A stretch of DNA of 54,768 bases from a virus: the IMG/VR virus record IMGVR_UViG_3300033143_005875, positions 1 to 54,768 of that record; one strand, written 5' to 3'. The notes under the pieces are model-generated. The model was not told the origin of the DNA. It saw only the letters and a program-made list of their open reading frames with translations, and searched no databases. The position numbers and the translations under genes are program-made. Below, in pieces: positions 22,074 through 51,956 of this stretch; position 1 is the first letter of the stretch; each line of letters starts with the position of its first letter.

Positions 22074-22090
22074 GCTCTAATCCGTCCTCT

Positions 22091-22134
22091 CGCGCTCTTG
22101 CTCGTCCTCTTGCTCGTGCTCCTGCTCGTGCTCG
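22091..22134. repeat. Junction repeat family A, locus 3
   Basis: Seven imperfect CTCGTGCTC/CTCTTGCTC units in the 86-base gap between two tail genes, ending in GTGCTCGATCTTCT, an ending shared with locus 4. Confidence 0.85.
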
Positions 22135-22159
22135 ATCTTCTCTTCTCTCCCCTCCCGCG

Positions 22160-33015: not shown

Positions 33016-33251
33016 CAGTCGCTCCCGTCGTCCGCAGGGTTCATCACGGGGCACGTCGCGATCGCGAGCTGGCCCAGCCGCGCGATCGCCTGCGCCTGAG
33101 ACGCCAGCCTGCTCTTCCTCACTGTCGCGATCTCCGCCTCCGCCGCCGACCACTGCTCCTCCGTCACCTGCCCGGGGAAGAACCTGTGGATCAGCACCAG
33201 CGCAAACAGCACCTCGCCCACCGCACCCAGCAGTCCGCCTATTCCGAACAT
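33015..33251 (-). CDS. Small membrane protein, lysis-group candidate
   Basis: This 78-residue protein begins with a hydrophobic segment (FGIGGLLGAVGEVLFALVLI), followed by a helical cytoplasmic or periplasmic tail. AAAAGGAGAG precedes ATG 33251. It is adjacent to the candidate lysin and another single-span protein, so holin or antiholin roles are possible. The longer frame in this phase is repeat-derived. Confidence 0.45.
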   Translation of the reverse strand: MFGIGGLLGAVGEVLFALVLIHRFFPGQVTEEQWSAAEAEIATVRKSRLASQAQAIARLGQLAIATCPVMNPADDGSD

Positions 33252-33276
33252 GTCGCTCTCCTTTTCTTCCCTCCCC

Positions 33277-33300
33277 CTGACCTCTGACCGCTGACCTCTG
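33277..33300. repeat. Junction repeat family B, locus 4
   Basis: TGACCTCTGACCGCTGACCT in the short gap between the head-tail joining gene and the small membrane protein gene. Confidence 0.85.
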
Positions 33301-33303
33301 TCC

Positions 33304-33651
33304 TTATGCCCTATAACCGCTCCGGCTCGCCTCATACCACTCCGGCCGCACACAATGCAGCGTCACCATCCCCGCCTCCGGCCCGTCCCAACTCTCCACC
33401 ACCAGCGTCACCCCCCGCACCACCACCTCCTTCCCATAGTCCGGCTCCGCCACGTCCTCCGTGCTCAGCACCACCGCCGCCCGCGTCACCTTGTCCTGCC
33501 CCAGCTCCCCCTCCTCGACGTCCGTCCCCTCCACCGCCACGTCCACCGCCGTCACCGCCGCCCCGTCATACGTCACCGCCTCCCCGTACTCGCCTTGCAG
33601 CGCGTCCCGAGGCCCCGCCGCCGCCGTCCACCTGTCGTCAAACTCACTCAC
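33304..33651 (-). CDS. Head-tail joining protein
   Basis: This 115-residue protein has a short helical start (MSEFDDRWTAAAGPRDALQG) followed by beta strands with a GKEVVVRGVTLVVESWDGPE turn. The pattern recalls gpFII-like or phage head-closure proteins that start MxxFxxxFxxaxxp. Position after the capsid cluster and before tail genes fits. Start ATG 33651. Confidence 0.5.
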   Translation of the reverse strand: MSEFDDRWTAAAGPRDALQGEYGEAVTYDGAAVTAVDVAVEGTDVEEGELGQDKVTRAAVVLSTEDVAEPDYGKEVVVRGVTLVVESWDGPEAGMVTLHCVRPEWYEASRSGYRA

Positions 33652-34636
33652 CGCCCGCCCCTATCTTCCCGCTTCTCGTGCTCGTGCTCTTGCTCGTGCT
33701 CTTCCACCCCCCTCTTCCAATCGCGAATCGGCAATCGCCGATCGCCGATTGCGGCGCCCGCCCCAGCATCCGCTCGAAGAACGCACTCACCGTCCACCGC
33801 TCCAGCACCACCACCCTGGCCGCCGCCGCCACCGCCGCTCGCTCCCGAGGCCGCTTCCCCCACCACCGCACCTGCGCCACCAGCTCCCCCAGGTCACCGA
33901 ACGTCGGCACCATCGGGAACTCCCGCACCACCGCCGCACTCCTGCGAGCCACCATGAACCCGCCGACCGCCGGGATCTCGAAGTGCCGGCAGATCAGATA
34001 CTCCGCGTCCCCGCCACCCCACTCGATCGGCCACACGACGTTCACCGGCACGCTTTGATACACCAGCTTCACCCGCTCCACCGGCAGCCACTGCACCCCT
34101 GGCAGCCCGCGGCCCCACACCGCCACCTCGAGCCCCGCCGCACGCAGCGCCGCAATCGCCCGCTGCCTGCACGGATAGAGCACCCCCACCACCGACGCGT
34201 CCGCGTGCGCCCCGTAGCACTCCTGCTCCCGCCACCCCACGTCCTCCGGGCTCCACACCCCAGGGTCGATCCCCACGTGATCCACCCGCACGACCTGACC
34301 CTGCCCCGCATACCACTGGAGATCGTCCGCCGTGCACACCACCTGGTCGTCGCACGCCTTCGCCAGCTCGTCGTATATCGGCCGCTTCGTCACCGGCGGA
34401 TCGTACGTCCACCACACCACACGCGCCCCGTGCGCCTGCCACATCCGCACCAAGTCGGGATTCAGGCTCGTCCGATCCTTGAAGTCGCCCTGCTGCAAGG
34501 CCACGACGTCCGGCCACTCGCCCTTCACCACCAGCGGCCCGTGCCGGTAGTTCCACACCCCACACTCGTGCCCCAGCCCCACGACCGCCGCCTGGCTCGC
34601 CGCCGTCGCGTATGTCTGCACCAAGAGCACTCTCAT
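33644..34636 (-). CDS. Glycosyltransferase (GT-B type)
   Basis: This 330-residue protein begins MRVLLVQTYATAASQAAVVG and has a two-domain GT-B look, with VVALQQGDFKDR and DDLQWYAGQGQVVRVDHVGI in the N-terminal half and a C-terminal AVGGFMVARRSAAVVREF like CgeB-type glycosyltransferases. It should transfer a sugar from a nucleotide donor. The last 35 residues are translated repeats of families D and A (QSAIGDCRFAIG, KSTSKSTSTRS). Its ATG overlaps the methyltransferase stop. Confidence 0.65.
   Translation of the reverse strand: MRVLLVQTYATAASQAAVVGLGHECGVWNYRHGPLVVKGEWPDVVALQQGDFKDRTSLNPDLVRMWQAHGARVVWWTYDPPVTKRPIYDELAKACDDQVVCTADDLQWYAGQGQVVRVDHVGIDPGVWSPEDVGWREQECYGAHADASVVGVLYPCRQRAIAALRAAGLEVAVWGRGLPGVQWLPVERVKLVYQSVPVNVVWPIEWGGGDAEYLICRHFEIPAVGGFMVARRSAAVVREFPMVPTFGDLGELVAQVRWWGKRPRERAAVAAAARVVVLERWTVSAFFERMLGRAPQSAIGDCRFAIGRGGWKSTSKSTSTRSGKIGAGGE
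33674..33702. repeat. Junction repeat family A, locus 5
   Basis: CTCGTGCTC/CTCTTGCTC units translated as a Lys-Ser-Thr run at the end of the GT-B glycosyltransferase. Confidence 0.85.
33717..33752. repeat. Junction repeat family D, locus 1
   Basis: Units of (C/G)AATCGCCGAT/GGCAATCGCC, four imperfect copies, translated in the C-terminal tail of the glycosyltransferase 15 bases from a family A locus. Confidence 0.8.
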
Positions 34637-35367
34637 CGGCGCACCCATTCCACCGCCTCGTTGTCCGCGTTCCCGTCCGTCTCCAGACGCCGCACCTCCC
34701 TGAAGCCCGCCCCGCTCATCACCCCCACCAGGCTCTCCGTCTCCGTGACGTGCAGGCCCACATTCCCCCTCGCGCCCACGGTCCCGTTCCGTGTGAACGG
34801 CGCCGAGTAGCAGAATGCCCCGCCGCGCCGCACCATCGGCAGCACGTCCTCTCGAAGCCACCGCGGCCAGTCGGGCACGTGCTCGATTACGTCGAAGGCC
34901 GTCACCACGTCATACCCGCCTGATATCACCCTCCTGCCGAACACCACCTCCCCCTCACACTCCCCCGCATGGCACTCCCACCGCGACCGCGTGAACGCCT
35001 CGTTCAGCAGCCCGAGGTCGTGATACCCCGCCCGCCCGCCACGCTGCGCCATATACAGCACGTCCGTCCCGATCCCGCCACCAATGTCCAGGCACCGCTT
35101 CCCCGCCAGCTCCATCCCCGGCAGCACTGCCCCCACCGTGCACCAGCACGGCCGGCACAGCGTGAACAGATACCCCTGCGCCGCCCGGTAGAACCACCGC
35201 AGCTCCTCCACCGTATTCGGGTCCCAGAACACCCACTCCTGCGCGTGCAGGCTCCCCGAGCGATACGCACGCTCCCTGCACACCGCCAGCGGCAGCCCCG
35301 TCCACGCCGCCAGATCCGCCAACGCCGCGCCCGCAAACCCAGGGTCCGCTATCGCCTCATGCTCCAT
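34633..35367 (-). CDS. SAM-dependent methyltransferase (class I)
   Basis: This 244-residue enzyme has a Rossmann motif I at CLDIGGGIGTDVLYMA, then VTAFDVIEHVPDWPRWL, the conserved E-H-V-P-D found in class I methyltransferases, and FCYSAPFTRNGTVG. An N-terminal 80 residues with Cys-rich helix (YLFTLCRPCWCTVG) may bind a substrate. It lies between an epimerase and a glycosyltransferase, so the target is likely a sugar. ATG 35367 is favoured; GTG 35376 is possible. Confidence 0.72.
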   Translation of the reverse strand: MEHEAIADPGFAGAALADLAAWTGLPLAVCRERAYRSGSLHAQEWVFWDPNTVEELRWFYRAAQGYLFTLCRPCWCTVGAVLPGMELAGKRCLDIGGGIGTDVLYMAQRGGRAGYHDLGLLNEAFTRSRWECHAGECEGEVVFGRRVISGGYDVVTAFDVIEHVPDWPRWLREDVLPMVRRGGAFCYSAPFTRNGTVGARGNVGLHVTETESLVGVMSGAGFREVRRLETDGNADNEAVEWVRR

Positions 35368-36412
35368 CCACGGCACCCCTCACCAGCCGCTCCAGGATCT
35401 CGTCCAGGCCCACCTCCGCCCGCCACCCCTCGTGCTCCCGCCGAAACTTCCCCGTGTCCGTGATCCAGATCGCGTGATCCCCCAGCCGCGGCCGCTCCTC
35501 ATACGTCCACTCGACCCGATGCCCCAGCTCACCCAGCCGCCCGATGGCCTCCAGCACGCTCACACTGTTCGCCCGCCCGCCCCCGAGGTTGTACACCGCG
35601 CCCGTCCCAGGCCGCTCCACCGACGCCCAGCACGCTCGCGCCACGTCCTCCGCGTGCAACTGATCCCGCACCTGCTTCCCCCCGTGCCCGATCACCGTAT
35701 ACCGCCGCCCACCCACCGCACACCGCGTCAGGTAGCTCAGGAACCCGTGCAGCGCCACCCCCGCATGCCCCTCGCCCGTGAGGCATCCGCACCGCAGGCA
35801 CGTCGTCCGCAGCCCGAACGTCCGCCCATACTCCTGCACCAGCAGGTCAGCCGCCGCCTTGCTCACCCCGAACAGGCTGTGCAGGCTCCGATCCATCCGC
35901 ATCGTCTCGTCTATCCCGTCCCTGCTCCCGTCCGCCCAGTCATACCGCGTCTCCAACTCCACCATCGCCAGGTCGTTCACCGCGTCACCATACACCTTGT
36001 TCGTGCTCAGGAAGACGAACGGCGCCTCGGGACACCACTGCTGCGTGCACTCCAGCAGCCGCAGCGTCGCCGTCGCGTTCACCTGCCAGTCACGCCACAC
36101 GTGCTCCCGCGCCCAGTCGTGGCTCGGCTGCGCCGCACAGTGCACCACCGCGTCGAAGCCCTTGGTGTTCCGAAATGCCTTCCACAGGTTGTCGGCGGCG
36201 ATGTCCGTCCGCCACCATGTCAGCCGCCCACCCATCTCCGCCTCGAGCGCCCGGCCCGCCGCCGTCGTGTCCCCGCCCTCCCCGAAGTACTCCGCCCGCT
36301 GCCCGCCGTCGATCCCCGTGATGTTCCAGCCCCGACGCCCGAACTCGCGTACCACCGCACTCCCCACCAGCCCGCTGCTCCCCGTCACCAGCACCCGCCG
36401 CTCGCCTGCCAT
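35357..36412 (-). CDS. NAD-dependent nucleotide-sugar epimerase (extended SDR)
   Basis: This 351-residue enzyme has the Rossmann start VLVTGSSGLVGSAVVREFGR, and the region FVFLSTNKVYGDAVNDLAMV with Ser/Thr. The active-site helix (SLHSLFGVSKAAADLLVQEY) lacks the usual YxxxK Tyr: the place reads FGVSK. YNLGGGRANSVSVLEAIGRL is the nucleotide-sugar region. It resembles CDP-paratose/tyvelose epimerases. It would convert a nucleotide-linked sugar for the neighbouring glycosyltransferases. ATG 36412 has AGGAGCGGAAG upstream. The Tyr-to-Phe change may alter or lower activity. Confidence 0.8.
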   Translation of the reverse strand: MAGERRVLVTGSSGLVGSAVVREFGRRGWNITGIDGGQRAEYFGEGGDTTAAGRALEAEMGGRLTWWRTDIAADNLWKAFRNTKGFDAVVHCAAQPSHDWAREHVWRDWQVNATATLRLLECTQQWCPEAPFVFLSTNKVYGDAVNDLAMVELETRYDWADGSRDGIDETMRMDRSLHSLFGVSKAAADLLVQEYGRTFGLRTTCLRCGCLTGEGHAGVALHGFLSYLTRCAVGGRRYTVIGHGGKQVRDQLHAEDVARACWASVERPGTGAVYNLGGGRANSVSVLEAIGRLGELGHRVEWTYEERPRLGDHAIWITDTGKFRREHEGWRAEVGLDEILERLVRGAVDGA

Positions 36413-36423
36413 CTTCCGCTCCT

Positions 36424-37119
36424 CTACGTGTACGGCACCGCAGGCTGCCGCGCACCCACGTGCGTCGCAAACTCCACGTGCGGCGTCGCCACCGCCAACC
36501 CACGCGCGTGGAACCACCGCCCGATGTGCCACTCCATCTCCCTGTTCGTCAGACGCGGGAACGGCCGCAGCCCTTCGTAAAGACCCGCCCGGCACAGGTG
36601 CACCCGCATCGAGTACTGGCCCAGCCGATTCCCCCACGCCGCCGCCCGATTCACCTGATACGGCACCCCCGTCACATCCTCGACGCCCACGCCCACCCGC
36701 TTGAAGCAGCCCGCCGCCTCGTTCCGATCCAGCGTCCCAGGCAGATGCTCCGCCAGCACCTCCCCTACCTCCGGCCGCTCCCCGAGCACACCCGCCGCGA
36801 ACTCCAGCCACCCGCCGCGCTCCCACCGATAGTCGCTCTCCATGTACACCCTGAGCTCCGCATCCCGCCGAGGGTCCGACAGCACCTCGAACGCCAGCCG
36901 CACAGCGTTCCTGTCCCGAGCCCACACGACCTCCGCCCAGCACCCCAACTCCCCCTGCACCCGCTCGATCGCCGCACGCGTCGCCGCGTCGCTCCCGTCG
37001 TCCACCAGCGTCCACCGATAACCCCCCTCGGCAGGCCGCCCGTAGTGCTCCACCCAACTCCGCGCCGTCCCCTCCAGCAGACCCGGCCGCCCGTAGTTCG
37101 GCGTTGCAATCTCTACCAT
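36424..37119 (-). CDS. Glycosyltransferase family 2-like (GT-A)
   Basis: This 231-residue protein begins MVEIATPNYGRPGLLEGTAR and has YRWTLVDDGSDAATRAAIER, the nucleotide-binding strand with D-D-G-S of family 2 glycosyltransferases. VYMESDYRWERGGWLEFAAG holds a D-x-D-like acidic site (ESD). A C-terminal region with many aromatic residues may bind the acceptor. The start overlaps the upstream stop as TGATG. It is part of the sugar cluster. Confidence 0.75.
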   Translation of the reverse strand: MVEIATPNYGRPGLLEGTARSWVEHYGRPAEGGYRWTLVDDGSDAATRAAIERVQGELGCWAEVVWARDRNAVRLAFEVLSDPRRDAELRVYMESDYRWERGGWLEFAAGVLGERPEVGEVLAEHLPGTLDRNEAAGCFKRVGVGVEDVTGVPYQVNRAAAWGNRLGQYSMRVHLCRAGLYEGLRPFPRLTNREMEWHIGRWFHARGLAVATPHVEFATHVGARQPAVPYT

Positions 37120-37751
37120 CACTCCGCCTCCAGCACCGCGTAGCACACCTCACGGCTCGGATACACCACCCGCGCCCGCAGCCCACTGATGTCTTCCAGC
37201 TCGAACAGTGTCCGCGGATACATCCAATACGCCCCCGTCACCCCCGGCCGCGCCCCAAACTCCCTGTCCACCAACACCGGCGTGTCCCCCACCACCCACA
37301 CGGCGTCAGCCGACGCCACCGCACGCAACTCCCCAAAGATCGCCGCCGCTACGTCGTCCGGCCAGTGGCACACCACGCTGTGTAGCCACACCAGGTCGGG
37401 CCCAATGCCACCCTCCAGCCCTTCACCCAGCGGTCCCACCAGCCGCGTGCTCACCCTGCCATTTGCCCCATACCGTTCGTTTACCGCTGCCAGCGCATCT
37501 TCTGACAGATCGGCACCACAGACCGAGGCACATCGCTCCAGCAGCGCGTCAATGAAGAAGCCCGCCCCGCATCCATAGTCCAGCGCCAGCCTGCACACCC
37601 CTATGCCCGACAGCACCCGCCCCGCCAGCTCGTGCACCCCCGGGCTCCAACTCTCGCACGGCGGCCCGTTCCGCAGCGAGTACTTCCGGCGCCGCTCCCA
37701 ATACGCCGCCAGACCCTCGGGCGTCCGATATGCCGCCGCCTCGTCACTCAC
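37119..37751 (-). CDS. SAM-dependent methyltransferase (class I)
   Basis: This 210-residue enzyme has motif I LALDYGCGAGFFIDALLERC, an acidic strand VCGADLSEDALAAV and post-motif IGPDLVWLHSVVCHWPDDVA. It probably methylates a sugar or lipid-linked substrate made by this cluster. GTG 37751 is chosen: it overlaps the upstream stop (GTGA) with AGGAG at 8 bases. The longer frame from 37787 is less likely. Confidence 0.75.
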   Translation of the reverse strand: MSDEAAAYRTPEGLAAYWERRRKYSLRNGPPCESWSPGVHELAGRVLSGIGVCRLALDYGCGAGFFIDALLERCASVCGADLSEDALAAVNERYGANGRVSTRLVGPLGEGLEGGIGPDLVWLHSVVCHWPDDVAAAIFGELRAVASADAVWVVGDTPVLVDREFGARPGVTGAYWMYPRTLFELEDISGLRARVVYPSREVCYAVLEAE

Positions 37752-38290
37752 GAGCTCTTCTCCTGCGCAATTTCCGTTCGCATCCAATACCGCGCACTCC
37801 CACCCTCACCCGCCGACGCCAACTCCTCGAACCCGTTCAGCAAATACTCCATATTGGCCGGACCCAGCCGCCAGCCGCCCCAGTCGTGCACCCCCAGGAC
37901 GTCCCCCACCCGCAGCCACCGCCCATACTGCTGCGCCAGCAGCAGCCGCCGGCCCGCGTCACACCACAGCACCGTCGGCCCGCCCACCTCCCACCGCAGC
38001 ACGTCCGTGATCTTCCACGGCTCGTTGTGCACGTCCGCCCGCACCGCGTGCAGGCCCTGACCCATCCAACCCGCCTGCGCCGCACTCAGCGGCCGCACTA
38101 TCAGGTCATACGTCCAGATCTCCGCCTCCGGCACCACCTCGTGGCATAGGGCACAATACCCGTAGTGCCGCGTTCCCAGCTCCACCATCCGCACGGGCCG
38201 CGTCAGGCCGAAGACCTCCCGCGCCACCCGCACGTCCTCCGCCATCTGTATGATCTCGAACTCCGCGCCGCCGCCCATATCCAGTCTCAC
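37748..38290 (-). CDS. Methyltransferase-like protein (CmcI/cephalosporin hydroxylase-like)
   Basis: This 180-residue protein has VRMVELGTRHYGYCALCHEV, matching the LELG(x)RxGGS motif of class I methyltransferases such as CmcI and rhamnosyl O-methyltransferase, then IWTYDLIVRPLSAAQAGWMG and GVHDWGGWRLGP, where a His-Asp metal site lies. It may be metal-dependent. GTG 38290 overlaps the upstream stop with GGAGG at 8 bases. Confidence 0.6.
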   Translation of the reverse strand: MRLDMGGGAEFEIIQMAEDVRVAREVFGLTRPVRMVELGTRHYGYCALCHEVVPEAEIWTYDLIVRPLSAAQAGWMGQGLHAVRADVHNEPWKITDVLRWEVGGPTVLWCDAGRRLLLAQQYGRWLRVGDVLGVHDWGGWRLGPANMEYLLNGFEELASAGEGGSARYWMRTEIAQEKSS

Positions 38291-38754
38291 GCTATCGCCT
38301 CCATCCGCAGGTTCAAGTGCTGCCGCGGCCCATGTGTCCGCGCAGGCGCCCGCACGATCCTCCGAAAGCCCGCTCGCTCCAGCAGCCGCCGCAGACGCGT
38401 CGCGTCCAGGAACGTCTTGTGCTCGCCGCGCTCGTACGCCGCCCTGTTCATCTCCTGCGCCCCGATCTCCCCGCGCACGTACGCCCGCGCATACCCCTCC
38501 AGGTCGGGGCACTCCACCACCAGCCGCCCACCTGCCCGAAGCCACTCATGCCAGTGCCGCAGCAGGCCCTCTGTCTCCCACCACGGCACGTGCTCGATCG
38601 CGTGGATCGCCTCGATCTCCTCCGCATTGTCGAGCTCCGGCGGCAGCCGCCGCATGTCCGCCACCACGTCAGGCTCCACCGCGGGATCCACGTCCACGTA
38701 CACCCACCCCGCCTCATCCTTCCGCGTCCGACCGCACCCCAGGCTGATCTTCAT
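38287..38754 (-). CDS. SAM-dependent methyltransferase (compact)
   Basis: This 155-residue enzyme begins MKISLGCGRTRKDEAGWVYV (motif I LGCG), then DVDPAVEPDVVADMRRLPPE and IEAIHAIEHVPWWETEGLLR, a class I methyltransferase with the E-H-V-P signature and a short C-terminal domain. It is smaller than typical (200-250 residues) and lacks extra domains. It is the first gene of the cluster after the major capsid gene. Confidence 0.78.
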   Translation of the reverse strand: MKISLGCGRTRKDEAGWVYVDVDPAVEPDVVADMRRLPPELDNAEEIEAIHAIEHVPWWETEGLLRHWHEWLRAGGRLVVECPDLEGYARAYVRGEIGAQEMNRAAYERGEHKTFLDATRLRRLLERAGFRRIVRAPARTHGPRQHLNLRMEAIA

Positions 38755-38844
38755 CTGCCTTCTCCGTCACTTGCCTCCGCCGATGGGGGCTGGGCAGGCG
38801 AAAGGAGCAGAACCCACCCAGCCCCGCCCTCGGCGAGCGAGTAC

Positions 38845-39810
38845 CTACGGCGAGACGATCGCCGGGTCGATGATGTTGTCGATCATCCACGCACACGCCG
38901 TCATGATGTCCTCTTCGTCCGTGTAGTGCCGCGCACGCACGATGTCCGTCCGCGTCTGCGGCTCCTCGTACGTGTCCATCGTGACGTTGCTCGGGCTGTC
39001 GGGCGTGTAGAGGAACGTCCGCCCGATGCACGGCTGCTTCAGCATCTCGCCCTCCGCGACCTTCAGCAGCATCACCAGGTCGTCGTCCCACATCCGCGTG
39101 ATCTCCTTCGGCAGCCCTTCGTCCGCCGCATCGTAGATCTGATCGGCGATCAGCACCTGACGCAGCTCGAAGAGCCGCGCCAGCACCGCCGGCGTGTACT
39201 CCGTCCCGCCCGTGCCCGGGATCGTGTACTTCAGCCGCTCCGCGATCTCGTCCACCAGCGGAAGCGCCTGATACGCCCGGAACCCGATCACCATCGTGTC
39301 CGGCCGCAGCCCCGTGGCCTCGTACAGCGTCCTGATCCCCAGCCGCGTGTCCGCGAGCGGCGTCGCGTTCGCTGTGTCATTCCACTCGTTCCCGACCGTC
39401 TGGTTCACCGCGAACGTCTGGAGATGCGTCAGGATCCGCTGCTCCTGCATCCGCAGCAGCACGTCCACCGCACGCTGAGCCGCGAACTTCTCCGCGTCGA
39501 AGTAGTCTGCGACCTGCGCCGCCTCCACCGCGTCCACGGGATCCTCCACGCCGCGCTCGATGCACGCGTAGCTGTCCGTCTCGTAGTTCCAGTCCATCCT
39601 GTGGTACGCACCCCGCGGCGCGCGCCGGATGTCCGCAGGCAGCTTCAGCACTGCCTCCGCCGGGATCACGGGGTAGAAGCCCGCCTCCTTCGTCACGGGG
39701 AAGACCGGGTAGAGCTTCAGCCCGATGTAGTTCCGGTTCATCACGTACTCCGCCAGCGCGTCCTCGATGTCGCGCCGAAGCCTCGTCTGTCCAGGCGCCA
39801 ATCTCGGCAT
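38845..39810 (-). CDS. Major capsid protein (lambda gpE-type)
   Basis: This 321-residue protein matches the gpE-type capsid pattern: NRNYIGLKLYPVFPVTKEAG near the N-terminus, GVEDPVDAVEAAQVADYFDA in the middle, then IRTLYEATGLRPDTMVIGFR and EITRMWDDDLVMLLKVAEGE. It lies directly after the decoration protein and shares its leader (AGGAGGATAGGC before ATG), as in lambda. It forms the icosahedral shell. Confidence 0.82.
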   Translation of the reverse strand: MPRLAPGQTRLRRDIEDALAEYVMNRNYIGLKLYPVFPVTKEAGFYPVIPAEAVLKLPADIRRAPRGAYHRMDWNYETDSYACIERGVEDPVDAVEAAQVADYFDAEKFAAQRAVDVLLRMQEQRILTHLQTFAVNQTVGNEWNDTANATPLADTRLGIRTLYEATGLRPDTMVIGFRAYQALPLVDEIAERLKYTIPGTGGTEYTPAVLARLFELRQVLIADQIYDAADEGLPKEITRMWDDDLVMLLKVAEGEMLKQPCIGRTFLYTPDSPSNVTMDTYEEPQTRTDIVRARHYTDEEDIMTACAWMIDNIIDPAIVSP

Positions 39811-39879
39811 CGCCTATCCTCCTGATTCCACAGCCATCCGCTTCTGTTCCTGTCCGCCTCTTCCTCTGTCCCCTGCTTC

Positions 39880-39904
39880 CTGACCGCTGACCGCTGACCT
39901 CTGG
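39880..39904. repeat. Junction repeat family B, locus 5
   Basis: TGACCGC units followed by TGACCTCTG in the gap between the decoration and capsid genes. Confidence 0.85.
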
Positions 39905-39906
39905 CC

Positions 39907-40311
39907 TTAGCTGCCCGTCACCGTCTCCGTCCCGCCGCCCGCGAACAGCCACGCCTCGAAGATGCTGTCGTCCGCAGCCGCCGCCTCGAACGCGTAGCCC
40001 AGGAACCTGTACGTGCCCGCCCCCGCCGGCAGAGCCTGCACCTTCCCGTTCGCCGCCGCGTAGATCGCCGCACCGATCCCGATCGCACCCGCCGCCACGA
40101 CCTTGTGCGTCCCGCCGTGCTTGAAGTCACGGATGCTCACCGTCTCGCCGGGCGCACCCGTCACGTCCATCCCCTGAACCACCCCCACGGGGATGTGCGT
40201 CGCCGTCGCCGAGTTCAACAGCACCAGCCCCAGCGCCTGTCTGACCAGCCGATACTGATACACCTGCGCGCTGGTCGTGCGGTTGAAGACAAAATCCGTC
40301 TGCGTCGCCAT
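39907..40311 (-). CDS. Capsid decoration protein (DUF2190-type)
   Basis: This 134-residue protein has the GVVQGMDVTGAPGETVSIRD and AAGAIGIGAAIYAAANGKVQ pattern of DUF2190 head-decoration proteins, small beta-barrel trimers that stabilise expanded capsids. It lies just before the major capsid gene, as in lambda gpD. Start ATG 40311 with AGGAGG upstream. Confidence 0.82.
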   Translation of the reverse strand: MATQTDFVFNRTTSAQVYQYRLVRQALGLVLLNSATATHIPVGVVQGMDVTGAPGETVSIRDFKHGGTHKVVAAGAIGIGAAIYAAANGKVQALPAGAGTYRFLGYAFEAAAADDSIFEAWLFAGGGTETVTGS

Positions 40312-40332: not shown

Positions 40333-41355
40333 CTATCCGTCACCCAGCAGCGTCCTGCACGTCTCCAGAAACATCGCCTCGTTCTCCGCCTGTATCGCCC
40401 TCGCCGCCGCCAGAGCCTGCTCCGACGCGCCGCGATAGTCGCTCAGGATCCTCGCCACGATCGCCGGCACCTCCTCCACATTCTCGTACCGCGTCGTCCG
40501 CCACGGACACCACGGGATCGCCGGGCTCGTGACCATCGGCTTCCCAGCACTCATGTGCTCGAGCGCCACGTAGTTGAAGCTCTCCGTCATGCTGAGCTGG
40601 AGCCCCACGTCCACCTCCTCCGCGATCCAGTCGCAGAACTGGCTGTGCTGCCGATACGGCTCCCGCACCAGCCGCAGACGCAGCGCGTTCGCCAGCTTCA
40701 GCATGTTCTCCACGTACCGCGGACTGTCCGCCCGCTCCCCCTGCATGTGCAGCTTCGCCGGCCGCACCTGCTCGCTCACCAGCTTCGCCGCCACCACGTG
40801 GCCCGCCGGGTGCTTCAGGTTCCGTATCGCGAAGATCGCACTCAGGTGCAGCCACTGCTCGTCGTGCACCGCCGCCCGCGGCCGCTCCGCCACCTCCCCA
40901 CACTGCACGTTCGGCATCGACAGCACGTCTGGCAGACCCGCCGCCCGCAGCCTGGCCGCGTCGTACGGGCTCACCACCGCATACCGAACGTTCCGATACC
41001 GCGCGCACAGACCCAGCACCTCCAGCCACTTGTCGCAGTCCGTCGCCGCCTGGAACAGCCACGGCAGGTTGCTGTGGCACCGCTGCACCCACAGCACGTC
41101 CGGCCACTCGATCGCGAGCTGCTCGAACTGTACCGTCGGCACGCAGAACGCACTGAGCACCACCAGCCGGGGCCGCGCTGTCGCCAGCCATTCGCCCCAC
41201 GCCTCCGCACTCTGGTAATCGCCCACCACGTCGTCCAGCGCCAGGCTCACCGCCGTCCATCCCGCCTCCTCGAGCACCGCACTGCACTGCCGCGTGTTGT
41301 TCGCCAGCCCCGTGCTCTTGAACTGAGGTTTCGCATACACGAATGCTGCATCCAT
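40333..41355 (-). CDS. Glycosyltransferase (GT4-like)
   Basis: This 340-residue protein has an N-terminal Rossmann-like half (AAFVYAKPQFKSTGLANNTR) and the donor-binding motif SMTESFNYVALEHMSAGKPM near the C-terminus, the E-x7-E pattern of retaining GT4-type enzymes. It is separate from the main sugar cluster, lying between the protease/scaffold and decoration genes. ATG 41355 has AGGAGCGGG upstream; the earlier in-frame Met at 41451 is inside repeat family C. Confidence 0.72.
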   Translation of the reverse strand: MDAAFVYAKPQFKSTGLANNTRQCSAVLEEAGWTAVSLALDDVVGDYQSAEAWGEWLATARPRLVVLSAFCVPTVQFEQLAIEWPDVLWVQRCHSNLPWLFQAATDCDKWLEVLGLCARYRNVRYAVVSPYDAARLRAAGLPDVLSMPNVQCGEVAERPRAAVHDEQWLHLSAIFAIRNLKHPAGHVVAAKLVSEQVRPAKLHMQGERADSPRYVENMLKLANALRLRLVREPYRQHSQFCDWIAEEVDVGLQLSMTESFNYVALEHMSAGKPMVTSPAIPWCPWRTTRYENVEEVPAIVARILSDYRGASEQALAAARAIQAENEAMFLETCRTLLGDG

Positions 41356-41409
41356 CAACCCGCTCCTCTCCGCGCCTCGCTCGCCGCTCTGCGCCTCACT
41401 ATCTCCCCT

Positions 41410-41470
41410 CTGGCATCCGCCCTCTGGCATCTGGCATTCGGCATCTGGCATCCGCCCTCTGGCATCCGCT
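41410..41470. repeat. Junction repeat family C, locus 1 (GGCATCTGGCATC)
   Basis: Eight GGCATCTGGCATCC-type units between the protease/scaffold gene and the glycosyltransferase gene. Confidence 0.9.
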
Positions 41471-41473
41471 TGC

Positions 41474-41950
41474 CTATGTGCCGATCACCTTGGGCCACGT
41501 CGCCCTGATGTGCTCCACGATCTGCTTCGGCGTCCAGTCGGGATGCTCCGCGACCACCCGCTCCCGCGCCGCCTCATACGTCGTCGGCGCCTCGCCATCC
41601 GCCGCCTTCGTCGGCGTCTCGGGCTCCCTGTCCGTCACGACGGTCGTCACGGTCTTCCGCTCGGCCGCCTCCGCCTCGAGCTCCGCGATCCGCTTGTCCC
41701 GATCCGCCACCTCACCCGCCAGCCTGTCCGCCAGCCGCGCCTTCGCAGCCTCCACGCTCAGGCCCTCCGCCAGCGCGTCCAGCACCAGCGCCTCCTCGCC
41801 CTCCAGCGCCTCACGCAGCGCCGTCAGCCGATCCTTCGCCGACCGCTCACCCTGCTCCTCGCCCGTCTTCACCCAGCGCTCCCGCGCCTCCTTCATCAGC
41901 TCCGGATACGCCTCGAACAGCCCATCGACGCTCTTCACCTCGTCTGCCAT
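41474..41950 (-). CDS. Internal scaffold protein (Nu3-like)
   Basis: Within the protease gene an in-frame ATG at 41950 (residue 290) is preceded by AGGAGGACAGGGCG, a strong ribosome site. The 158-residue product (MADEVKSVDGLFEAYPELMK onward) is the helical C-terminal domain, so scaffold would be made alone, as lambda gpNu3 inside gpC. It should chaperone capsid assembly and then be degraded. Confidence 0.7.
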   Translation of the reverse strand: MADEVKSVDGLFEAYPELMKEARERWVKTGEEQGERSAKDRLTALREALEGEEALVLDALAEGLSVEAAKARLADRLAGEVADRDKRIAELEAEAAERKTVTTVVTDREPETPTKAADGEAPTTYEAARERVVAEHPDWTPKQIVEHIRATWPKVIGT

Positions 41951-42817
41951 CGCCCTGTCCTCCTGTCCTATGCCACTGCGGGCGCCAGCGGCGTCCGCCA
42001 GCATGCCCTCGAACGTCCCGATCCCGTCCACCAGACCCAACTTCACCGCCTCCCGCGCCATCCACACCGCCCCCGTCGCCCATTCCCGCGCCCGCCCCTC
42101 GCTCACCCCGCGGCCCCGAGCCACCGCCGCCACGAACTGACCTGACAGCACGTCCACGATCACCTGATACTCGTCCAGCAGCGCCTGCGGCGCCGCCGTC
42201 CCCTCCTCCCCAGCACCCTTCAGCGGCCCGCTCCCGACCACGTGGACCGTGACCCCCGCCTTCTCGAACAGCTTGCTCTCGTCCCAAATCACCGCATACG
42301 TGCCGATGCTCCCCACCATCCCCGGCTCGTTCACGAACAGCCGCCCCGCCTGGCTCGCCACGTAGTACGCCGCACTCGCCCCCAGGTCGCTCACAAAGGC
42401 GTCCACCGCCTTCACCTGCCGCGCCGCCCACACCGCCTCCGCCAGCTCGTACGTCCCCGCCGCCTCCCCGCCCGGGCTGTCCACGTAAAGTACGATCCGC
42501 TCTACCGTCGGGTCCGCCGCAGCCGCCTCCACCGCCGCCGTCAGCACCACCGTGTCCGCCGCCTCCACCCCGAACGCCCGGTAGATCCACGGCACCCCCT
42601 TCATCATGTACCCGACGATCGGGATCACCGCGACGCCACCACGACGCTGATACAGCTCGCCCTCCAACTCCTCTTCGGGCGGCTTCGTGAAGGCCAGCTC
42701 CACCGCCGCCCCCATCCCGCGCGACGCCAGGTGCCGCGCCAACTCCCGTACCTCTACGGGCCGCATCGACCACAACAGCGGCATCGCTCGCGCCAGCGTC
42801 AATCGCTTGTCTGTCAC
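41474..42817 (-). CDS. Head maturation protease, S49/SppA type, with scaffold domain
   Basis: This 447-residue protein is a lambda gpC-like fusion. The N-terminal half has VLYVDSPGGEAAGTYELAEA (113-117 DSPGG) and the nucleophile Ser148 in SDLGASAAYYVASQ, as in S49 proteases. The C-terminal half is a charged, helical scaffold. It would cut scaffold and connector proteins during head maturation. GTG 42817 overlaps the portal stop (GTGA) and has GGAGG at 7 bases. An internal start makes the separate scaffold. Confidence 0.88.
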   Translation of the reverse strand: MTDKRLTLARAMPLLWSMRPVEVRELARHLASRGMGAAVELAFTKPPEEELEGELYQRRGGVAVIPIVGYMMKGVPWIYRAFGVEAADTVVLTAAVEAAAADPTVERIVLYVDSPGGEAAGTYELAEAVWAARQVKAVDAFVSDLGASAAYYVASQAGRLFVNEPGMVGSIGTYAVIWDESKLFEKAGVTVHVVGSGPLKGAGEEGTAAPQALLDEYQVIVDVLSGQFVAAVARGRGVSEGRAREWATGAVWMAREAVKLGLVDGIGTFEGMLADAAGARSGIGQEDRAMADEVKSVDGLFEAYPELMKEARERWVKTGEEQGERSAKDRLTALREALEGEEALVLDALAEGLSVEAAKARLADRLAGEVADRDKRIAELEAEAAERKTVTTVVTDREPETPTKAADGEAPTTYEAARERVVAEHPDWTPKQIVEHIRATWPKVIGT

Positions 42818-44355
42818 TTGCTGCCCTCCTTCTCCGCCGGCTCCGCCGCTTCCTTCTTCCCCGTCAGCGCGTCCAGCCGCTCCAGCACTTCCTCCCCCAT
42901 CTCCGCCTCCTCCGCCACCAGCTCCTCATTCACCTCCGCGAAGTCCTGGTCGCTCGTCTCCGCAATCACGTCCCCGCGCGTCCGCAGCCGGTTCTTGATC
43001 ATCAGCACGGCCGCCTGCGCCTGATCCTTGATATCCACCCACTGCCAGCCCGGCTTCCGCCACGCCACCCGCCCGAGCTGCCCCTTCGGCGGCTTCAGCA
43101 GCCGACGCTTCTGCACCCCGTACCCCACCACGTACGACCACACAGGCCGACACCAGTTCCACTCGAACCACTGCTGCTGACGCCTGAACGTCCGATACGC
43201 CTGAAGCAGCGCCGCTCGCGTGTTGCTCCAGTTGTTCGCCGTGAAGTCCAGCCACACCAGCTCCACCGGCAGCCCCATGTGCCGTCCCACGTACCTGCTG
43301 ATGATCTTGATCAGCTCCGCGAAGCCCGTTCCAGGATGCTGCGGCGTGATCTGCGCGATCTCGTCCATCCGCGGGATCCGCTTGATCATCCCTGGCTCCA
43401 GCTCCTCCCACTGCTCCGTCTGCCCCGAGCTCGGGTTCGTCTCCGACGTCCCGTAGCTCGGCTTCATGTTCCCCGTCTTAATGATCAGCCCGTAGCACGC
43501 CGCCATGATGTGCGCCCACGTGTCCGCCTCGATCACGTCCTCCAGCCGATCCAGCTCGTCCAGCACCCCGCCAAGCACCGGCCGCCCGCGGCTCGCACTG
43601 AACCTGTAGGGGTCCACCAGGAACACGAAGTCCTTCGCGGCCACCGCCTCCGCCTCGTCCACGTACGCCGACGTCGGGTGCTTCGTCGCAATGTAGTACT
43701 TGACCGGCGCCCCCTTGCCGTCGAACGCGATCCCGTTGATGATCGCGCTCCGCGCCTCCCGCGTCAGGTCCCCCGCACCGCCCGCCAGACGCTGCGGCGT
43801 CGCGATCCTGTCCCCCTCGATCGGCTGCAACTGCCCCTCCGTCAGCACGAACCCCACGTCCCCGTCACGCCGCGCACTCAGGTACGACAGCCGCTGCATG
43901 TCCGCGTTGCTGAGGATCCCCCGCACGTCCAGCACCTGCTCCCGCCAATACGCCAGCGCCTCCTCGTTCCACGCCTCGCTATCCGTGTTCGGGCGCGGCG
44001 AGAACCCCATGTGCACCGTGTTGTCCACGTCCGTCTGGAGGATGCCCGCCGCCAGCGTGTTCTCGCGCACCACGGCCCGGCAGCGCTCCCGCAGCGTCCA
44101 CAGCGTGCTGTCCGTGAGGTGCTTGTTCGCCGTGCCCCCGAGCCCGCTCCGTCGCCTGTGCATCCGCCCGTTCGACGCGTCCCGATACGCCGACGCCGCC
44201 CGCTGCCTGTCCCGCGCCTCCTGCCGCCGCAGCCCCCACACCGGCGCCACCAGCCGCACCGCCGCGTCCACCCGCTCCTCCCACGTGCGCCGACGCTCCC
44301 GCCACCGCTCCGCCCGCTTCGCCGCATCCATCCGCTTACCCACGCACCACCCCAT
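42814..44355 (-). CDS. Portal protein (lambda gpB-type)
   Basis: This 513-residue protein matches the lambda-type portal: LRERCRAVVRENTLAAGILQ, TDVDNTVHMGFSPRPNTD, LVDPYRFSASRGRPVLGGVL, then LIKIISRYVGRHMGLPVELV. It forms the dodecameric channel for DNA packaging and joins the tail. It lies downstream of gpW and upstream of the protease, as in lambda. The exact start (GTG 44358, ATG 44355 or ATG 44331) is uncertain, because no strong ribosome site is seen. Confidence 0.9.
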   Translation of the reverse strand: MGWCVGKRMDAAKRAERWRERRRTWEERVDAAVRLVAPVWGLRRQEARDRQRAASAYRDASNGRMHRRRSGLGGTANKHLTDSTLWTLRERCRAVVRENTLAAGILQTDVDNTVHMGFSPRPNTDSEAWNEEALAYWREQVLDVRGILSNADMQRLSYLSARRDGDVGFVLTEGQLQPIEGDRIATPQRLAGGAGDLTREARSAIINGIAFDGKGAPVKYYIATKHPTSAYVDEAEAVAAKDFVFLVDPYRFSASRGRPVLGGVLDELDRLEDVIEADTWAHIMAACYGLIIKTGNMKPSYGTSETNPSSGQTEQWEELEPGMIKRIPRMDEIAQITPQHPGTGFAELIKIISRYVGRHMGLPVELVWLDFTANNWSNTRAALLQAYRTFRRQQQWFEWNWCRPVWSYVVGYGVQKRRLLKPPKGQLGRVAWRKPGWQWVDIKDQAQAAVLMIKNRLRTRGDVIAETSDQDFAEVNEELVAEEAEMGEEVLERLDALTGKKEAAEPAEKEGSK

Positions 44356-44379
44356 CACGCTACAGCCACGTCACCCGCC

Positions 44380-44697: not shown

Positions 44698-45207
44698 TTA
44701 GCCCACCAGCTCGATCAGATCCAGCAGCACGCACAGCGCGTCCTGCGGCGTCCGCACGGGATACTCCACCCCACCCGTGCCCCCGCGCGTGTGCCTGAGC
44801 ACCGTCATCTCGGTATCGATCATCCCGCGCAGGACCGCCGCCAGCTTCCTGTGGCGGCCCGCGTCCAGGCTCACGTCCACGTGCCGACGCGAGAACGCAA
44901 ACCCCTCGGGCAGCGCCTCACCCTCCTCGAAGGCCGCGAAGCCCAGCCTGAGCACGCTCCCCTCCCCGCAGCCCCGCTCGCCCTCCAGCCGCTCCACCTT
45001 CGCCGCCTCCACCGCCAGCGCGTCGCCCAGCTCCCGCAACTGCTCGTCCCGCTCCGTCACCGCCGCCTCCAGCGCCGCCCGCTCCGCCAGCAGCCGCTCC
45101 ACGTCCGCCAGCACAGCCTCCCCCCGCTGCTCTTGCTCCTGTCCGTCCTCGTGCTCGTGCTCGTGCTCGCTTCCCGCCGCATTGTTGTCCGTCGCCTTCT
45201 TCGCCAT
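44698..45207 (-). CDS. Coiled-coil protein of unknown function
   Basis: This 169-residue protein has an acidic N-terminal run (SEHEHEHEDGQEQEQ) made by family A repeats, a long coiled coil (VERLLAERAALEAAVTERDE onward) and a C-terminal folded part (FSRRHVDVSLDAGRHRKLAA). It lies upstream of gpW. It could be a scaffold-like or packaging accessory protein. AGGAGAAGAGG precedes ATG 45207. Confidence 0.55.
   Translation of the reverse strand: MAKKATDNNAAGSEHEHEHEDGQEQEQRGEAVLADVERLLAERAALEAAVTERDEQLRELGDALAVEAAKVERLEGERGCGEGSVLRLGFAAFEEGEALPEGFAFSRRHVDVSLDAGRHRKLAAVLRGMIDTEMTVLRHTRGGTGGVEYPVRTPQDALCVLLDLIELVG
45128..45168. repeat. Junction repeat family A, locus 6
   Basis: Six CTCGTGCTC-type units translated in frame as the Glu-His stretch at the N-terminus of the coiled-coil protein. 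Confidence 0.85.
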
Positions 45208-45656: not shown

Positions 45657-46916
45657 TCACGCCCTCCGCGCCCCCTTCAGCCACCCATACGCCTCCAACC
45701 GCTCCGCCACTTTCACCCACCCGCGCTTCTGCCCCGCCGTCAGCCGAATCACCCACCGAGGCCACCCCTCACTCCCCACATTCACCCGCTCCACCTTCCG
45801 CACCCCCTCTTCCTCGTGCTCGTGCTCCTGCTCTCTTCCTGCCGCTGCCTCCCGCTCCCCACCCACCATCTCGGCAATCCACCCCTGCCCAGGCCACTCC
45901 ACCATCGGCCCGGGCCGCACCCACAGCGGCTCCAGCCCCCACTCCCGCATCCACAGCAGGTTCATCATGCACGCCGCCAGATCCGCCTCCGTCTCGCCCA
46001 CACCCTGCCGAAGCTGGAAGTGATACTTGATCCCCGCGTCCTGGAGCCACCGCATCGCCTCGAACGCCTCCTCGACCGTGTGCCCCTTGCCCAGCCGACG
46101 CAGCACCCCGTCCTCGAGGAACTCAATCCCCAGCGTCACGTCGGCACACCCCGCAGCCGCCAGCATCGCCACCTGCTCCCGCGTCATCGTCCGCACGTTC
46201 GCGTCCGTCCGCCACCGGATGTCCATCGCCTCCAAGCCCTCGAGCAGCGTCGTCAGCCACGCCATGTGCCGCTCGCCGCGCCCCGTGATCTCGTTGCACA
46301 GCAGGCTCACGCTCCACCCGCCGCGATCCGTCCGCGCCTCGGGCACACGGCGCAGCAGCTCCGCGATCTCCACCACCGCCAGATCCGCGTCCCGACGCCG
46401 CAGCCGCTGGCCCGCCCAGTGGCAGAACTTGCAGGACCACGGACACCCCGAGCTGAGCTGGTACAGCACCCGCTTCCACGTCGCCCACAGCCCCTCCGAC
46501 ACCGCGTCCAGCGGCAGCGGCTGCGTCGCGCTGAAATGGTCGTGCGGCCACCTGCACACCCCCCGCGGCACCTTCCCCTGGAGCGCGCTCGCCGTGCTCA
46601 TCGGATTCGCCCACCACGTCGGCGGCTGCTCCGACGCCTTCGCCGCAGCCACCACCAGCGGCCACAGCTCCTCGCCGTACGGCCAGGTCACCGCCATCTC
46701 ATACCGCCACGCCGGCGGCAGCCCCTCCGTCCTCTGGCCTGGCATCCGCAACATGGCATCTCTGATCTTCACCTCCTGCCCCATCGCCGCCGAGCGCCCC
46801 GCATTCTGGAGCGTCATCCCAGGCGTCCAGTCGGACGTCCATTGCCAACAACACTCCTCCTGCATCACATAATGCCCCGTCGCGTGCCGAGGCAACAGCA
46901 CTACCACGTCACCCAT
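45657..46916 (-). CDS. Radical SAM protein
   Basis: This 419-residue enzyme has C158-x3-C162-x2-C165 (SSGCPWSCKFCHWAGQ), the radical SAM iron-sulfur site, then LLRRVPEARTDRGGWSVSLL and CADVTLGIEFLEDGVLRRLG, typical of the TIM-barrel of this superfamily, and IKYHFQLRQGVGETEADLAA. The N-terminal 150 residues may be a cobalamin-like or substrate domain. It contains an in-frame family A repeat (EQEHEHEEEG). Substrate unknown; overlaps the next upstream gene by 8 bases. Confidence 0.8.
   Translation of the reverse strand: MGDVVVLLPRHATGHYVMQEECCWQWTSDWTPGMTLQNAGRSAAMGQEVKIRDAMLRMPGQRTEGLPPAWRYEMAVTWPYGEELWPLVVAAAKASEQPPTWWANPMSTASALQGKVPRGVCRWPHDHFSATQPLPLDAVSEGLWATWKRVLYQLSSGCPWSCKFCHWAGQRLRRRDADLAVVEIAELLRRVPEARTDRGGWSVSLLCNEITGRGERHMAWLTTLLEGLEAMDIRWRTDANVRTMTREQVAMLAAAGCADVTLGIEFLEDGVLRRLGKGHTVEEAFEAMRWLQDAGIKYHFQLRQGVGETEADLAACMMNLLWMREWGLEPLWVRPGPMVEWPGQGWIAEMVGGEREAAAGREQEHEHEEEGVRKVERVNVGSEGWPRWVIRLTAGQKRGWVKVAERLEAYGWLKGARRA
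45811..45834. repeat. Junction repeat family A, locus 7
   Basis: Four GTGCTC-type units translated in frame within the C-terminal part of the radical SAM protein. Confidence 0.8.
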
Positions 46917-47178: not shown

Positions 47179-47202
47179 CTCCTGCTCCTCTCTTCCGCTC
47201 CC

Positions 47203-47235
47203 CATCTGGAATCTGGCATCCGGCATCTGGCATCT
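47203..47235. repeat. Junction repeat family C, locus 2
   Basis: GGAATCTGGCATCCGGCATC-type units between the large terminase stop and the next gene. Confidence 0.85.
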
Positions 47236-47236
47236 T

Positions 47237-49492
47237 TCACCACCGTCTCCGCCTCTTGCTCGCCCACCCCGCCGTCCTTCTCCCCCCCTCGCGCCTCCCC
47301 ACCCGCTCGCCCGCGTCCGCCCCCGCGTCACCCGACGGCACAGGCCCCAGCGTCCGCGCCCCGATGTACTCGCCCGCAGCCACCGCATAGACCAAGGCGT
47401 CGAGATAGTGGTTCGGCCGGCTCTCCACCACCGCCCAATGCTCCTTGATATGCCCCGACTTGTCCCGCTCGATCACCTTGTGCTCCGCCACCAGGTGCCG
47501 CAGCAGCTCCTCGCTCGGCTCCGCGTGCAGCTCCAGATACCCCGGGCCGCCCGGCGGCACCAGCAGCCGATGCAGCAGGATCGTGTCCTTGAACGCATCG
47601 ACGTTCACGCTCACCAGCAGCATCCCGCCCGGGAACGCCTTGTGCGTGAGGGGATGGATGTCCATCTTCGTCGCCGACCACAGCCGCCCGCCCATCCGCG
47701 TCCCCGGCTGACCCTTGATCGGCCGCAGGCGGTCGGGGAACTCACGGCACTCCTCATACTGCTCGCCCGCTTGCCAGCCGCTGTCCCAGAAGCCCATCGC
47801 GACCATCAGCCCCTCACCCTGCACCGCCGCCCGCCCGTACGAGCCCCGCAGCAGCCGATCCTTGACGTTCCCAGGGCTCTCATACACCGACTCATCGAGC
47901 AGCCACATCTTGCCCGCCTCGCCCCACCCGACGACGGCCGTGTGGTACATGTAGTCTGCCACGTCCACCCCCGCCGTCAGCACCTGCACCTCGCTCGGCA
48001 CCAGCCCCCGCGGCGTCGCGCCCACGTGTTGCAGCCACTGCTCCTCCGTCGCATCCCGGATGTCCTCCGTCCACGGAAGGCCCTGCCAGTCCTGCCTGAA
48101 CGTCTTCAGCCGCTCCGGCGTGTCCTTGTACCTGAGAAACGTCGCCGCGAAGCTCCACCACGACCGCGCGTGGAACGGGCTATTCAGCCCCGGCAGCCAG
48201 AACCCCACATGGCTCCCCCACTCCGCCCGCCACGCCGCACGCCGCCTCTCCAGCTCCGCATCCGCCGCCGCTCCATCCTCTTGTCTGGCATCCGGCATCT
48301 GGCATCCGGCATCCATCAGCCTCTCCGCCACCGCACCACTCAGCCTCCCTCCGATCACATCGTCCGCGTCGCCGCGCCCGCAGGCCGCCTCGAGCAGGCC
48401 CCCGAAGAACTCCAGGAACTCCAGACTGTTCTCCGTCAGCACCACGCTGCCCTCATCCTCCTCGCCCTCCACGAACCGACCGGCCACCCAGACCCCGCGC
48501 GCGAGCATCCACGGCTTCTGCCACGTCTCGATCCGACCGCCACACCACCGGCACTCATACCACGCGAGGTGCTGCGTGTGGATCTTCCGCCAGTCTCGCT
48601 CGCCCTCCGCCCACGTCACCCCATACATCTCCCCCAACTCCCTGCCCGCCGCCTTCGCCACCGCCGCGCCCCGCTCCCGATACGCCGGCCACCGCACACC
48701 GCTCTCCGACCCCCTGCTGCCCCGAAACACCAGCAACTGATACCCCAGGCAGTGCGGACACGGCACAATGAAGACGTGGAGCAGGCTGGCCTTCAGCTCC
48801 ACCCAGATCTCCCCGTAATTCGTGCTCGGCGTGCAGGCCCTGACCACCTTCCGCCCCGGGAAGTTGCTCGTCCGCTCGATCGCGTGCTGGCTCGGCCATC
48901 CCTGCCCCACCAGCGGCGCAGGATACTTGTCGGTCTCATCGAGGTAGACCTCGCGGATGGGCGTGCCCGCCAGCTCCGCCTCCGAGCCCGACCACGCCTG
49001 ATACAAGGTGCAGCGCTTGAACCGCTTGGCATACCCCTTCGCCGCGTTCTTGTCGCCCGCCAGGTTGTCCGCGAAGCCAGGGCTCATCACGATCATCCGC
49101 TCGAGCCGAACGTTCAGCTTGTCCAGTGCCGTCTTCGTCGGCTCCACCAGCAGGATCGGGCCGGGATGCTGATCCACCGCATACCCCGCCATAATCGTCA
49201 GCATCATCGTCTTCGCCACCTGAGTCCCCGTCGTCAGCACCAGGAACTCCACCACCGCGTCCGCATACGCCGCGAGCGGCCCCCGCACGTACGGCGTGCG
49301 CGACGCCCGATACGGCCCCGGCTCCGCGTGGTCGGCCGCGGGCAGCACCAGCCGCCGCTCCGCCCACTCGTCGGGCGTCCACTGCTCCGGCAGCGCCGAC
49401 ACCGCCTCCCACTCCTCCCCATCCCACACCGCCAGTTCCGCCGTCCCCCCGCCCTGGCCACCCTCTGCAATCTGGCATCCCGCATCTGTCAT
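47237..49492 (-). CDS. Terminase large subunit (GpA family)
   Basis: This 751-residue motor/nuclease has Walker A-like TTGTQVAKT (87-95), Walker B VYLDETDKYP (182-191), a zinc ribbon (CPHC 245-248, CRWC 314-317) and the nuclease strand LTAGVDVADYMYHTAVVGWG. It packages DNA into the head through the portal. Residues about 341-425 form an extra segment containing a translated family C repeat (DAGCQMPDARQED, 394-406), and the N-terminus MTDAGCQIAEGG is also repeat. ATG 49492 overlaps the Dam stop (ATGA). Confidence 0.9.
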   Translation of the reverse strand: MTDAGCQIAEGGQGGGTAELAVWDGEEWEAVSALPEQWTPDEWAERRLVLPAADHAEPGPYRASRTPYVRGPLAAYADAVVEFLVLTTGTQVAKTMMLTIMAGYAVDQHPGPILLVEPTKTALDKLNVRLERMIVMSPGFADNLAGDKNAAKGYAKRFKRCTLYQAWSGSEAELAGTPIREVYLDETDKYPAPLVGQGWPSQHAIERTSNFPGRKVVRACTPSTNYGEIWVELKASLLHVFIVPCPHCLGYQLLVFRGSRGSESGVRWPAYRERGAAVAKAAGRELGEMYGVTWAEGERDWRKIHTQHLAWYECRWCGGRIETWQKPWMLARGVWVAGRFVEGEEDEGSVVLTENSLEFLEFFGGLLEAACGRGDADDVIGGRLSGAVAERLMDAGCQMPDARQEDGAAADAELERRRAAWRAEWGSHVGFWLPGLNSPFHARSWWSFAATFLRYKDTPERLKTFRQDWQGLPWTEDIRDATEEQWLQHVGATPRGLVPSEVQVLTAGVDVADYMYHTAVVGWGEAGKMWLLDESVYESPGNVKDRLLRGSYGRAAVQGEGLMVAMGFWDSGWQAGEQYEECREFPDRLRPIKGQPGTRMGGRLWSATKMDIHPLTHKAFPGGMLLVSVNVDAFKDTILLHRLLVPPGGPGYLELHAEPSEELLRHLVAEHKVIERDKSGHIKEHWAVVESRPNHYLDALVYAVAAGEYIGARTLGPVPSGDAGADAGERVGRREGGRRTAGWASKRRRRW
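48283..48314. repeat. Junction repeat family C, locus 3 (inside terminase)
   Basis: Three TCTGGCATCCGGCA-type units inside the large terminase gene, in frame, encoding DAGCQMPDARQ. This is one of the few family C loci inside a core gene. Confidence 0.85.
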
Positions 49493-49500
49493 CTGGCACC
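49466..49500. repeat. Junction repeat family C, locus 4
   Basis: CAATCTGGCATCCCGCATCT-type units that cover the start of the large terminase frame and the end of the Dam gene. Confidence 0.8.
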
Positions 49501-50892: not shown

Positions 50893-50925
50893 CCATCGCC
50901 CCCTCTCCGCTCGCTCCCGACCTAT

Positions 50926-51939: not shown

Positions 51940-51956
51940 CACCCTGCTCCTCTCTG

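Follow-up and report, generated by a model that had tools for sequence, protein, structure and literature searches.

Why does an uncultured phage carry eight genes for sugar and methyl transfer among the genes that build its head? The question arises from a locus in the window, by which we mean one whole IMG/VR record (IMGVR_UViG_3300033143_005875, 54,768 bases). A sequence-only reading of it had placed seven such genes at 33644-38754, between the gene for the major capsid protein (MCP) and the head-tail joining gene: four methyltransferases (here MT1 to MT4), one epimerase and two glycosyltransferases (GT-A and GT-B). Their coordinates, strand and order are right, and an extra glycosyltransferase gene (GT0) does lie, as that reading had it, between the scaffold and decoration genes (Table 1). 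The locus is probably a module for virion glycosylation, expressed late, that adds methylated sugars to head proteins. Modification of the virion is favoured because of the position of the genes in the head operon with translational coupling, their capsid-like conservation in a relative, and the precedent of Corndogvirus. The earlier description missed two features: a variable cassette made up of three of the eight genes, and the absence from the epimerase of its usual catalytic tyrosine.

Comparison with an independent metagenomic contig of 16.5 kb (IMGVR_UViG_3300011118_000065, designated L001 and also L003), found by a scan with the capsid protein, shows how the locus is organized. The genes of L001 run in the order terminase, C5 methyltransferase, radical SAM (S-adenosylmethionine), portal, protease, GT0, cement, MCP, MT1, MT2, MT3, GT-B and joining gene. 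Identities between the two phages are 57% for the capsid protein, 54% for GT0, 54% for MT1, 78% for MT2, 61% for MT3 and about 60% for GT-B. Because five of the eight enzymes stand in the same order in an independent contig, the cluster is more than a chance arrangement, and because that contig keeps those five without the other three, the locus is divided into a conserved five-gene core (GT0, MT1, MT2, MT3 and GT-B) and a variable three-gene cassette (GT-A, the epimerase and MT4). The 4-base overlaps of MT1 with MT2 and of MT2 with MT3 are common to both phages. In L001, MT3 overlaps GT-B by 4 bases, a single clean junction at the place where the window has the cassette, whose two outer junctions are overlaps of 1 base and of 4 bases; in a comparison of two genomes, gain and loss of the cassette would look the same.

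Constraint on the core enzymes is roughly that seen on the capsid genes. Nonsynonymous distances (dN) between the window and L001 are 0.15 for MT2, 0.36 for MT3, 0.37 for GT-B, 0.41 for MT1 and 0.45 for GT0, and for the structural genes 0.37 (MCP), 0.35 (cement) and 0.46 (portal). We use dN for this comparison between genes only and do not take dN/dS as an absolute measure, because third positions of about 90% G+C distort the synonymous distances. The core is therefore not decaying cargo. The broader proposal that the enzymes are chance-acquired cargo (morons) with no part in virion formation could appeal to the cassette, which is present in one of the two phages only, but besides the constraint just described the order of the core is kept between phages with 57%-identical capsids and the codon use of the enzyme genes resembles that of structural genes. 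Conservation thus contradicts the cargo proposal as far as the core is concerned and does so less in the case of the cassette, and overall we regard the proposal as very unlikely.

The enzyme genes are coupled by start/stop overlaps and by purine-rich sequences resembling ribosome-binding sites. In transcription order from MT1 to GT-B the junctions measure -4, -4, -1, +11, -11 and -4 bases, and GT-B runs into the joining gene at -8, so the earlier statement that most of the seven are linked by overlaps of 1-4 bases is borne out: four of the six internal junctions are of this kind. A long GC-rich hairpin without a T-run could form in the MCP-MT1 gap (-45.8 kcal/mol, z -1.7), and the corresponding gap in L001 (10967-11070), although different in sequence, likewise has a long hairpin without a T-run (-63.8 kcal/mol, z -4.5). 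A search of the region for a consensus terminator found none. The hairpin may reduce expression of the enzymes relative to the capsid protein. The C-terminal tail of the cement protein (GGGTETVTGS in the window, GGTDTVTGS in L001) might accept a glycan.

Of the seven labels given to the cluster, five are firm, a sixth (MT2) has weak support and the last (GT-A) is tentative. Matches above the Pfam cut-offs identify MT1 (155 aa; PF13489, 34.4 bits, cut-off 27), MT3 (210 aa; PF08242, 38.5 bits, cut-off 30) and MT4 (244 aa; PF13489, 37.3 bits, cut-off 27) as class I SAM methyltransferases, GT-B (330 aa; PF13524, 41.1 bits, cut-off 25) as a Glyco_trans_1_2 protein, and the epimerase-like enzyme through PF01370 (130.7 bits). 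MT2 (180 aa) is conserved more strongly than any other gene of the locus; it has no profile match itself, and its L001 ortholog reaches PF04989 (RMNT_CmcI) at E 6e-4 and 20.0 bits, below the cut-off of 23.2, which weakly suggests a CmcI/rhamnosyl-O-methyltransferase-like enzyme. Its AlphaFold2 model is too poor for use (predicted local distance difference test score, pLDDT, 31). The 231-aa GT-A-like protein is tentatively classed as a glycosyltransferase of the GT-A (GT2-like) fold from the motifs TPNYGRPG (N-terminal), VDDGSD and ESDYRW, and the earlier assignment is unconfirmed to this extent, as no match was found in profile families, PDB sequences, phages, plasmids or Nitrospinota. The structure-based search proposed with that assignment gave, from a poor single-sequence AlphaFold2 model (pLDDT 39.5), Foldseek matches with E above 0.05 and none at E <= 0.001.

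GT0 (340 aa) is GT4-like and of the GT-B fold type; its own Pfam matches are weak, its L001 ortholog is above the PF20706 cut-off, and it keeps the motif E258-x7-E266. Its likely start is 41355, given that the ortholog begins at the same residue, and a start at 41451 was set aside on this ground. PF20706 is the Pfam family 'GT4-conflict' (glycosyltransferase of conflict systems), a name that could hint at another role. The final 35 or so residues of GT-B are encoded by repeats of the intergenic type, a tail that L001 does not have. PDB sequence searches with GT-A, MT2, GT-B and GT0 gave nothing usable, and tblastn gave no match in phages with GT0 and GT-B, nor in phages and plasmids with MT2 and GT-A.

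The closest PDB sequences to the epimerase-like enzyme are CDP-tyvelose 2-epimerases (TyvE, RfbE; 1ORR, 9RL0), with a match of about 100 bits, and both it and TyvE are by sequence extended short-chain dehydrogenases/reductases (SDRs) with a TNK segment and a KQVRD motif. In TyvE the catalytic triad is Thr124, Tyr164 and Lys168, the pocket is lined by VAM 83-85 and TNK 124-126, and CDP is bound by Trp207, Trp210 and Phe211 (PMC13098431, PMC7851689). The triad positions of the window enzyme are T137, F181 and K185, so that Thr and Lys are retained and the catalytic Tyr is replaced by Phe; TNK is retained (T137-N138-K139), whereas VAM has become PSH, the pocket residue Gln205 is H222, and the three residues that stack on CDP are F224, Y227 and L228. 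The identity suggested by the best PDB match, a CDP-tyvelose 2-epimerase, was rejected on these residues.

A missing Tyr might be read at first as the mark of a dead enzyme, a reading we rejected because the substitution is fixed across a subfamily along with a His-Asp pair. Among 30 Phe-type sequences (29 distinct) from Nitrospinota, Paracoccus, Azospirillum, Burkholderia and a 634-kb phage, Phe in the catalytic Tyr position is accompanied by His-Asp at 98-99 in all 30, and H222 is invariant wherever that position is covered. Tyr-type relatives resembling TyvE have V/M-T and DQ instead. The window enzyme keeps all of the Phe-type motifs (QPSHD, TNKVYG, HSxFGxSK and LHG(F/Y)L). Because Phe, the His-Asp pair and H222 change together across the members, the pattern of residues indicates that the enzyme is not a decayed TyvE but a member of a separate SDR subfamily in which the residue changes are coupled. 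His98-Asp99 or His222 might serve as base in place of Tyr, a tentative proposal: in TaTyvE it is the backbone of residue 85 that touches the sugar, and the M85A variant stays active. The group poses an enzymological question of its own, since the residue taken as the catalytic base is missing from it. It is apparently uncharacterised, and occurs in several bacterial lineages and two phages.

The cellular Phe-type proteins, NAD-dependent epimerases/dehydratases with 41-49% identity to the window enzyme, share H98, D99, F181, K185 and H222 with it. They are placed in polysaccharide loci, some adjoining a UDP-glucuronate (UDP-GlcA) decarboxylase; the Azospirillum member lies in a locus with an undecaprenyl-phosphate glucose phosphotransferase and a UDP-GlcA decarboxylase, and the Paracoccus member in one with Wzz and an O-antigen ligase. 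The window gene, by contrast, belongs to a phage head operon and lacks the UDP-GlcA decarboxylase or dehydrogenase genes that accompany some of the cellular ones. The polysaccharide loci of the cellular members, together with the large sugar cluster around the huge-phage member and an integrase in the window at 407-1804, lend something to the second option of the sequence-only reading, in which surface glycans of the host would be the target, during late infection or in a lysogen, so as to block superinfection or change serotype. However, the enzyme genes lie in the head operon and not beside the integrase, they keep their order with the head genes in L001, no membrane segment is predicted in any of the eight proteins, and the window genome has no GtrA-type flippase in a search whose control was positive in 7 genomes. 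Of the two options offered earlier, modification of the virion is thus the one favoured by the head operon, conservation and Corndogvirus, and modification of the host surface seems to us unlikely.

Hypermodification of the phage DNA by the glycosyltransferases and methyltransferases has to be weighed too, as a C5-cytosine methyltransferase is present in both phages (61% identity), a D12-class adenine methyltransferase is present in the window, and phage glycosyltransferases are described as placing diverse glycans on DNA (Pyle 2024, as cited in PMC12619734). Against this, the module lies in the head operon, distant from the replication genes, and the window genome has no thymidylate-synthase-type hydroxymethylase (PF00303; control positive in 9 genomes). 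A Tet/JBP enzyme was not found either, in a search whose control stayed silent, and Pfam scans covering the majority of the larger proteins of the window gave no such match. We give this explanation little credence.

A plausible scheme for the virion glycosylation module, in which acceptor, sugars, sequence of steps and purpose are our inference, is as follows. During particle assembly the enzymes would draw sugar donors from the host, and the SDR enzyme would turn one of them into another nucleotide sugar. GT0, GT-B and probably GT-A would then assemble a short glycan on at least one of the head proteins, perhaps the cement or capsid protein, and the methyltransferases would put O-methyl groups on it, thereby shielding or changing the particle surface. 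The core would be the fixed part and GT-A, the epimerase and MT4 an exchangeable cassette altering the outer glycan, a layout that predicts glycan variation between relatives. A bolder form of the scheme, in which a methylated rare-sugar glycan with swappable outer sugars makes up a virion 'serotype' system and the SDR subfamily performs hydride chemistry without Tyr by means of H98-D99 and H222, is rather doubtful.

Several points weigh against virion glycosylation. GT-A and MT2 are weakly classified; the enzymes of the precedent show no detectable homology, so that function would be carried over by layout and enzyme class only; and a position in the head operon is no proof that the substrate is a head protein. 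The core is moreover seen in only two phages. L001 is the sole close relative found in the IMG/VR scans, and a distant terminase/portal relative (L011), added through its large terminase subunit at 25% identity, has none of these enzymes in the 17 kb examined.

Table 1. Head-operon features of the window, listed in transcription order
Feature	Position	Strand	Basis or remark
Terminase large subunit	47237-49771	minus	
Portal	42814-44358	minus	
Head maturation protease (protease/scaffold)	41474-42817	minus	
GT0	40333-41355	minus	Between protease/scaffold and cement; PF20706 via L001 ortholog
Cement/decoration protein	39907-40311	minus	PF09956, 28.4 bits, above cut-off
Major capsid protein (MCP)	38845-39810	minus	phrog_1005, E 2e-38; 57% identity to L001 capsid
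MCP-MT1 gap with hairpin	38755-38844	minus	
MT1	38287-38754	minus	PF13489
MT2	37748-38290	minus	Weak, through L001 ortholog (PF04989)
MT3	37119-37751	minus	PF08242
GT-A-like gene (tentative)	36424-37119	minus	Motifs alone
SDR epimerase-like enzyme	35357-36412	minus	PF01370
MT4	34633-35367	minus	PF13489
GT-B	33644-34636	minus	PF13524
Head-tail joining protein, closes module	33304-33651	minus	PF05354, E 2e-4, under cut-off

The label of the joining gene is itself weak (22.1 bits, cut-off 26), and its product is 39% identical to the L001 counterpart. A radical SAM gene between terminase and portal (45657-46916; 39% identity in L001) may be part of the modification system. The C5-cytosine DNA methyltransferase genes of the window (6573-7475) and of L003 (3074-3985) occupy different genome places. 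Genes for the D12-class adenine methyltransferase and a DUF5131 protein (49489-51733) separate the large terminase gene from what is probably the small terminase gene (53543-54286), and their homologues in L003 are close together. Three families of short degenerate repeats are scattered across gene gaps and gene ends of the window: the GAGCACGAG type at 10022-10096, 13830-13892, 22081-22167, 33661-33723 and 45116-45190; the CCAGATGCC type at 41388-41475, 47184-47243, 48270-48329, 50910-50969, 51939-51998 and 52565-52624; and the GGTCAGAGGTCAG type at 13407-13491, 19268-19338, 33251-33307 and 39847-39917. These repeats may be a signature of the host genome.

Among known systems, the gtrABC serotype-conversion cassettes resemble the window in having phage-borne glycosyltransferase genes, although they include a membrane flippase and a membrane-anchored glycosyltransferase and the window enzymes include neither. 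In a few mycobacteriophages the virion has been shown to be glycosylated, which affects recognition by antibodies. In Corndogvirus Idergollasper the genes run portal, O-methyltransferase gp33, gp34, glycosyltransferases gp35 and gp36, capsid protease and MCP, with 4-base overlaps, and capsid and tail tube proteins are the reported targets of mycobacteriophage enzymes of this sort (PMC11600133, PMC12363180, citing Freeman et al. 2023). The likeness lies in glycosyltransferase genes accompanied by methyltransferases (in the window, MT1, MT3 and MT4 above the Pfam cut-offs) within the head operon, linked by 4-base overlaps and close to portal, protease and MCP. The differences are that the window enzymes follow MCP and precede the joining gene whereas those of Corndogvirus follow the portal, that the window has four methyltransferases, an SDR enzyme and a variable cassette whereas Corndogvirus has one methyltransferase and no annotated epimerase, and that Corndogvirus-type glycosylation is reported on virion proteins whereas the window module is known from its genes. 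BLASTP and hhalign comparisons of the window enzymes with gp33-gp36 gave nothing significant (best probability 3%). By analogy the module may work like the Corndogvirus cluster; we do not file it as a member, because layout and enzyme classes agree and ancestry does not. As no homology to the Corndogvirus enzymes was found, the same strategy seems to have been assembled independently here; if this is true, a second, apparently unrelated set of enzymes in the same setting would mean that other phage lineages evolved particle glycosylation independently.

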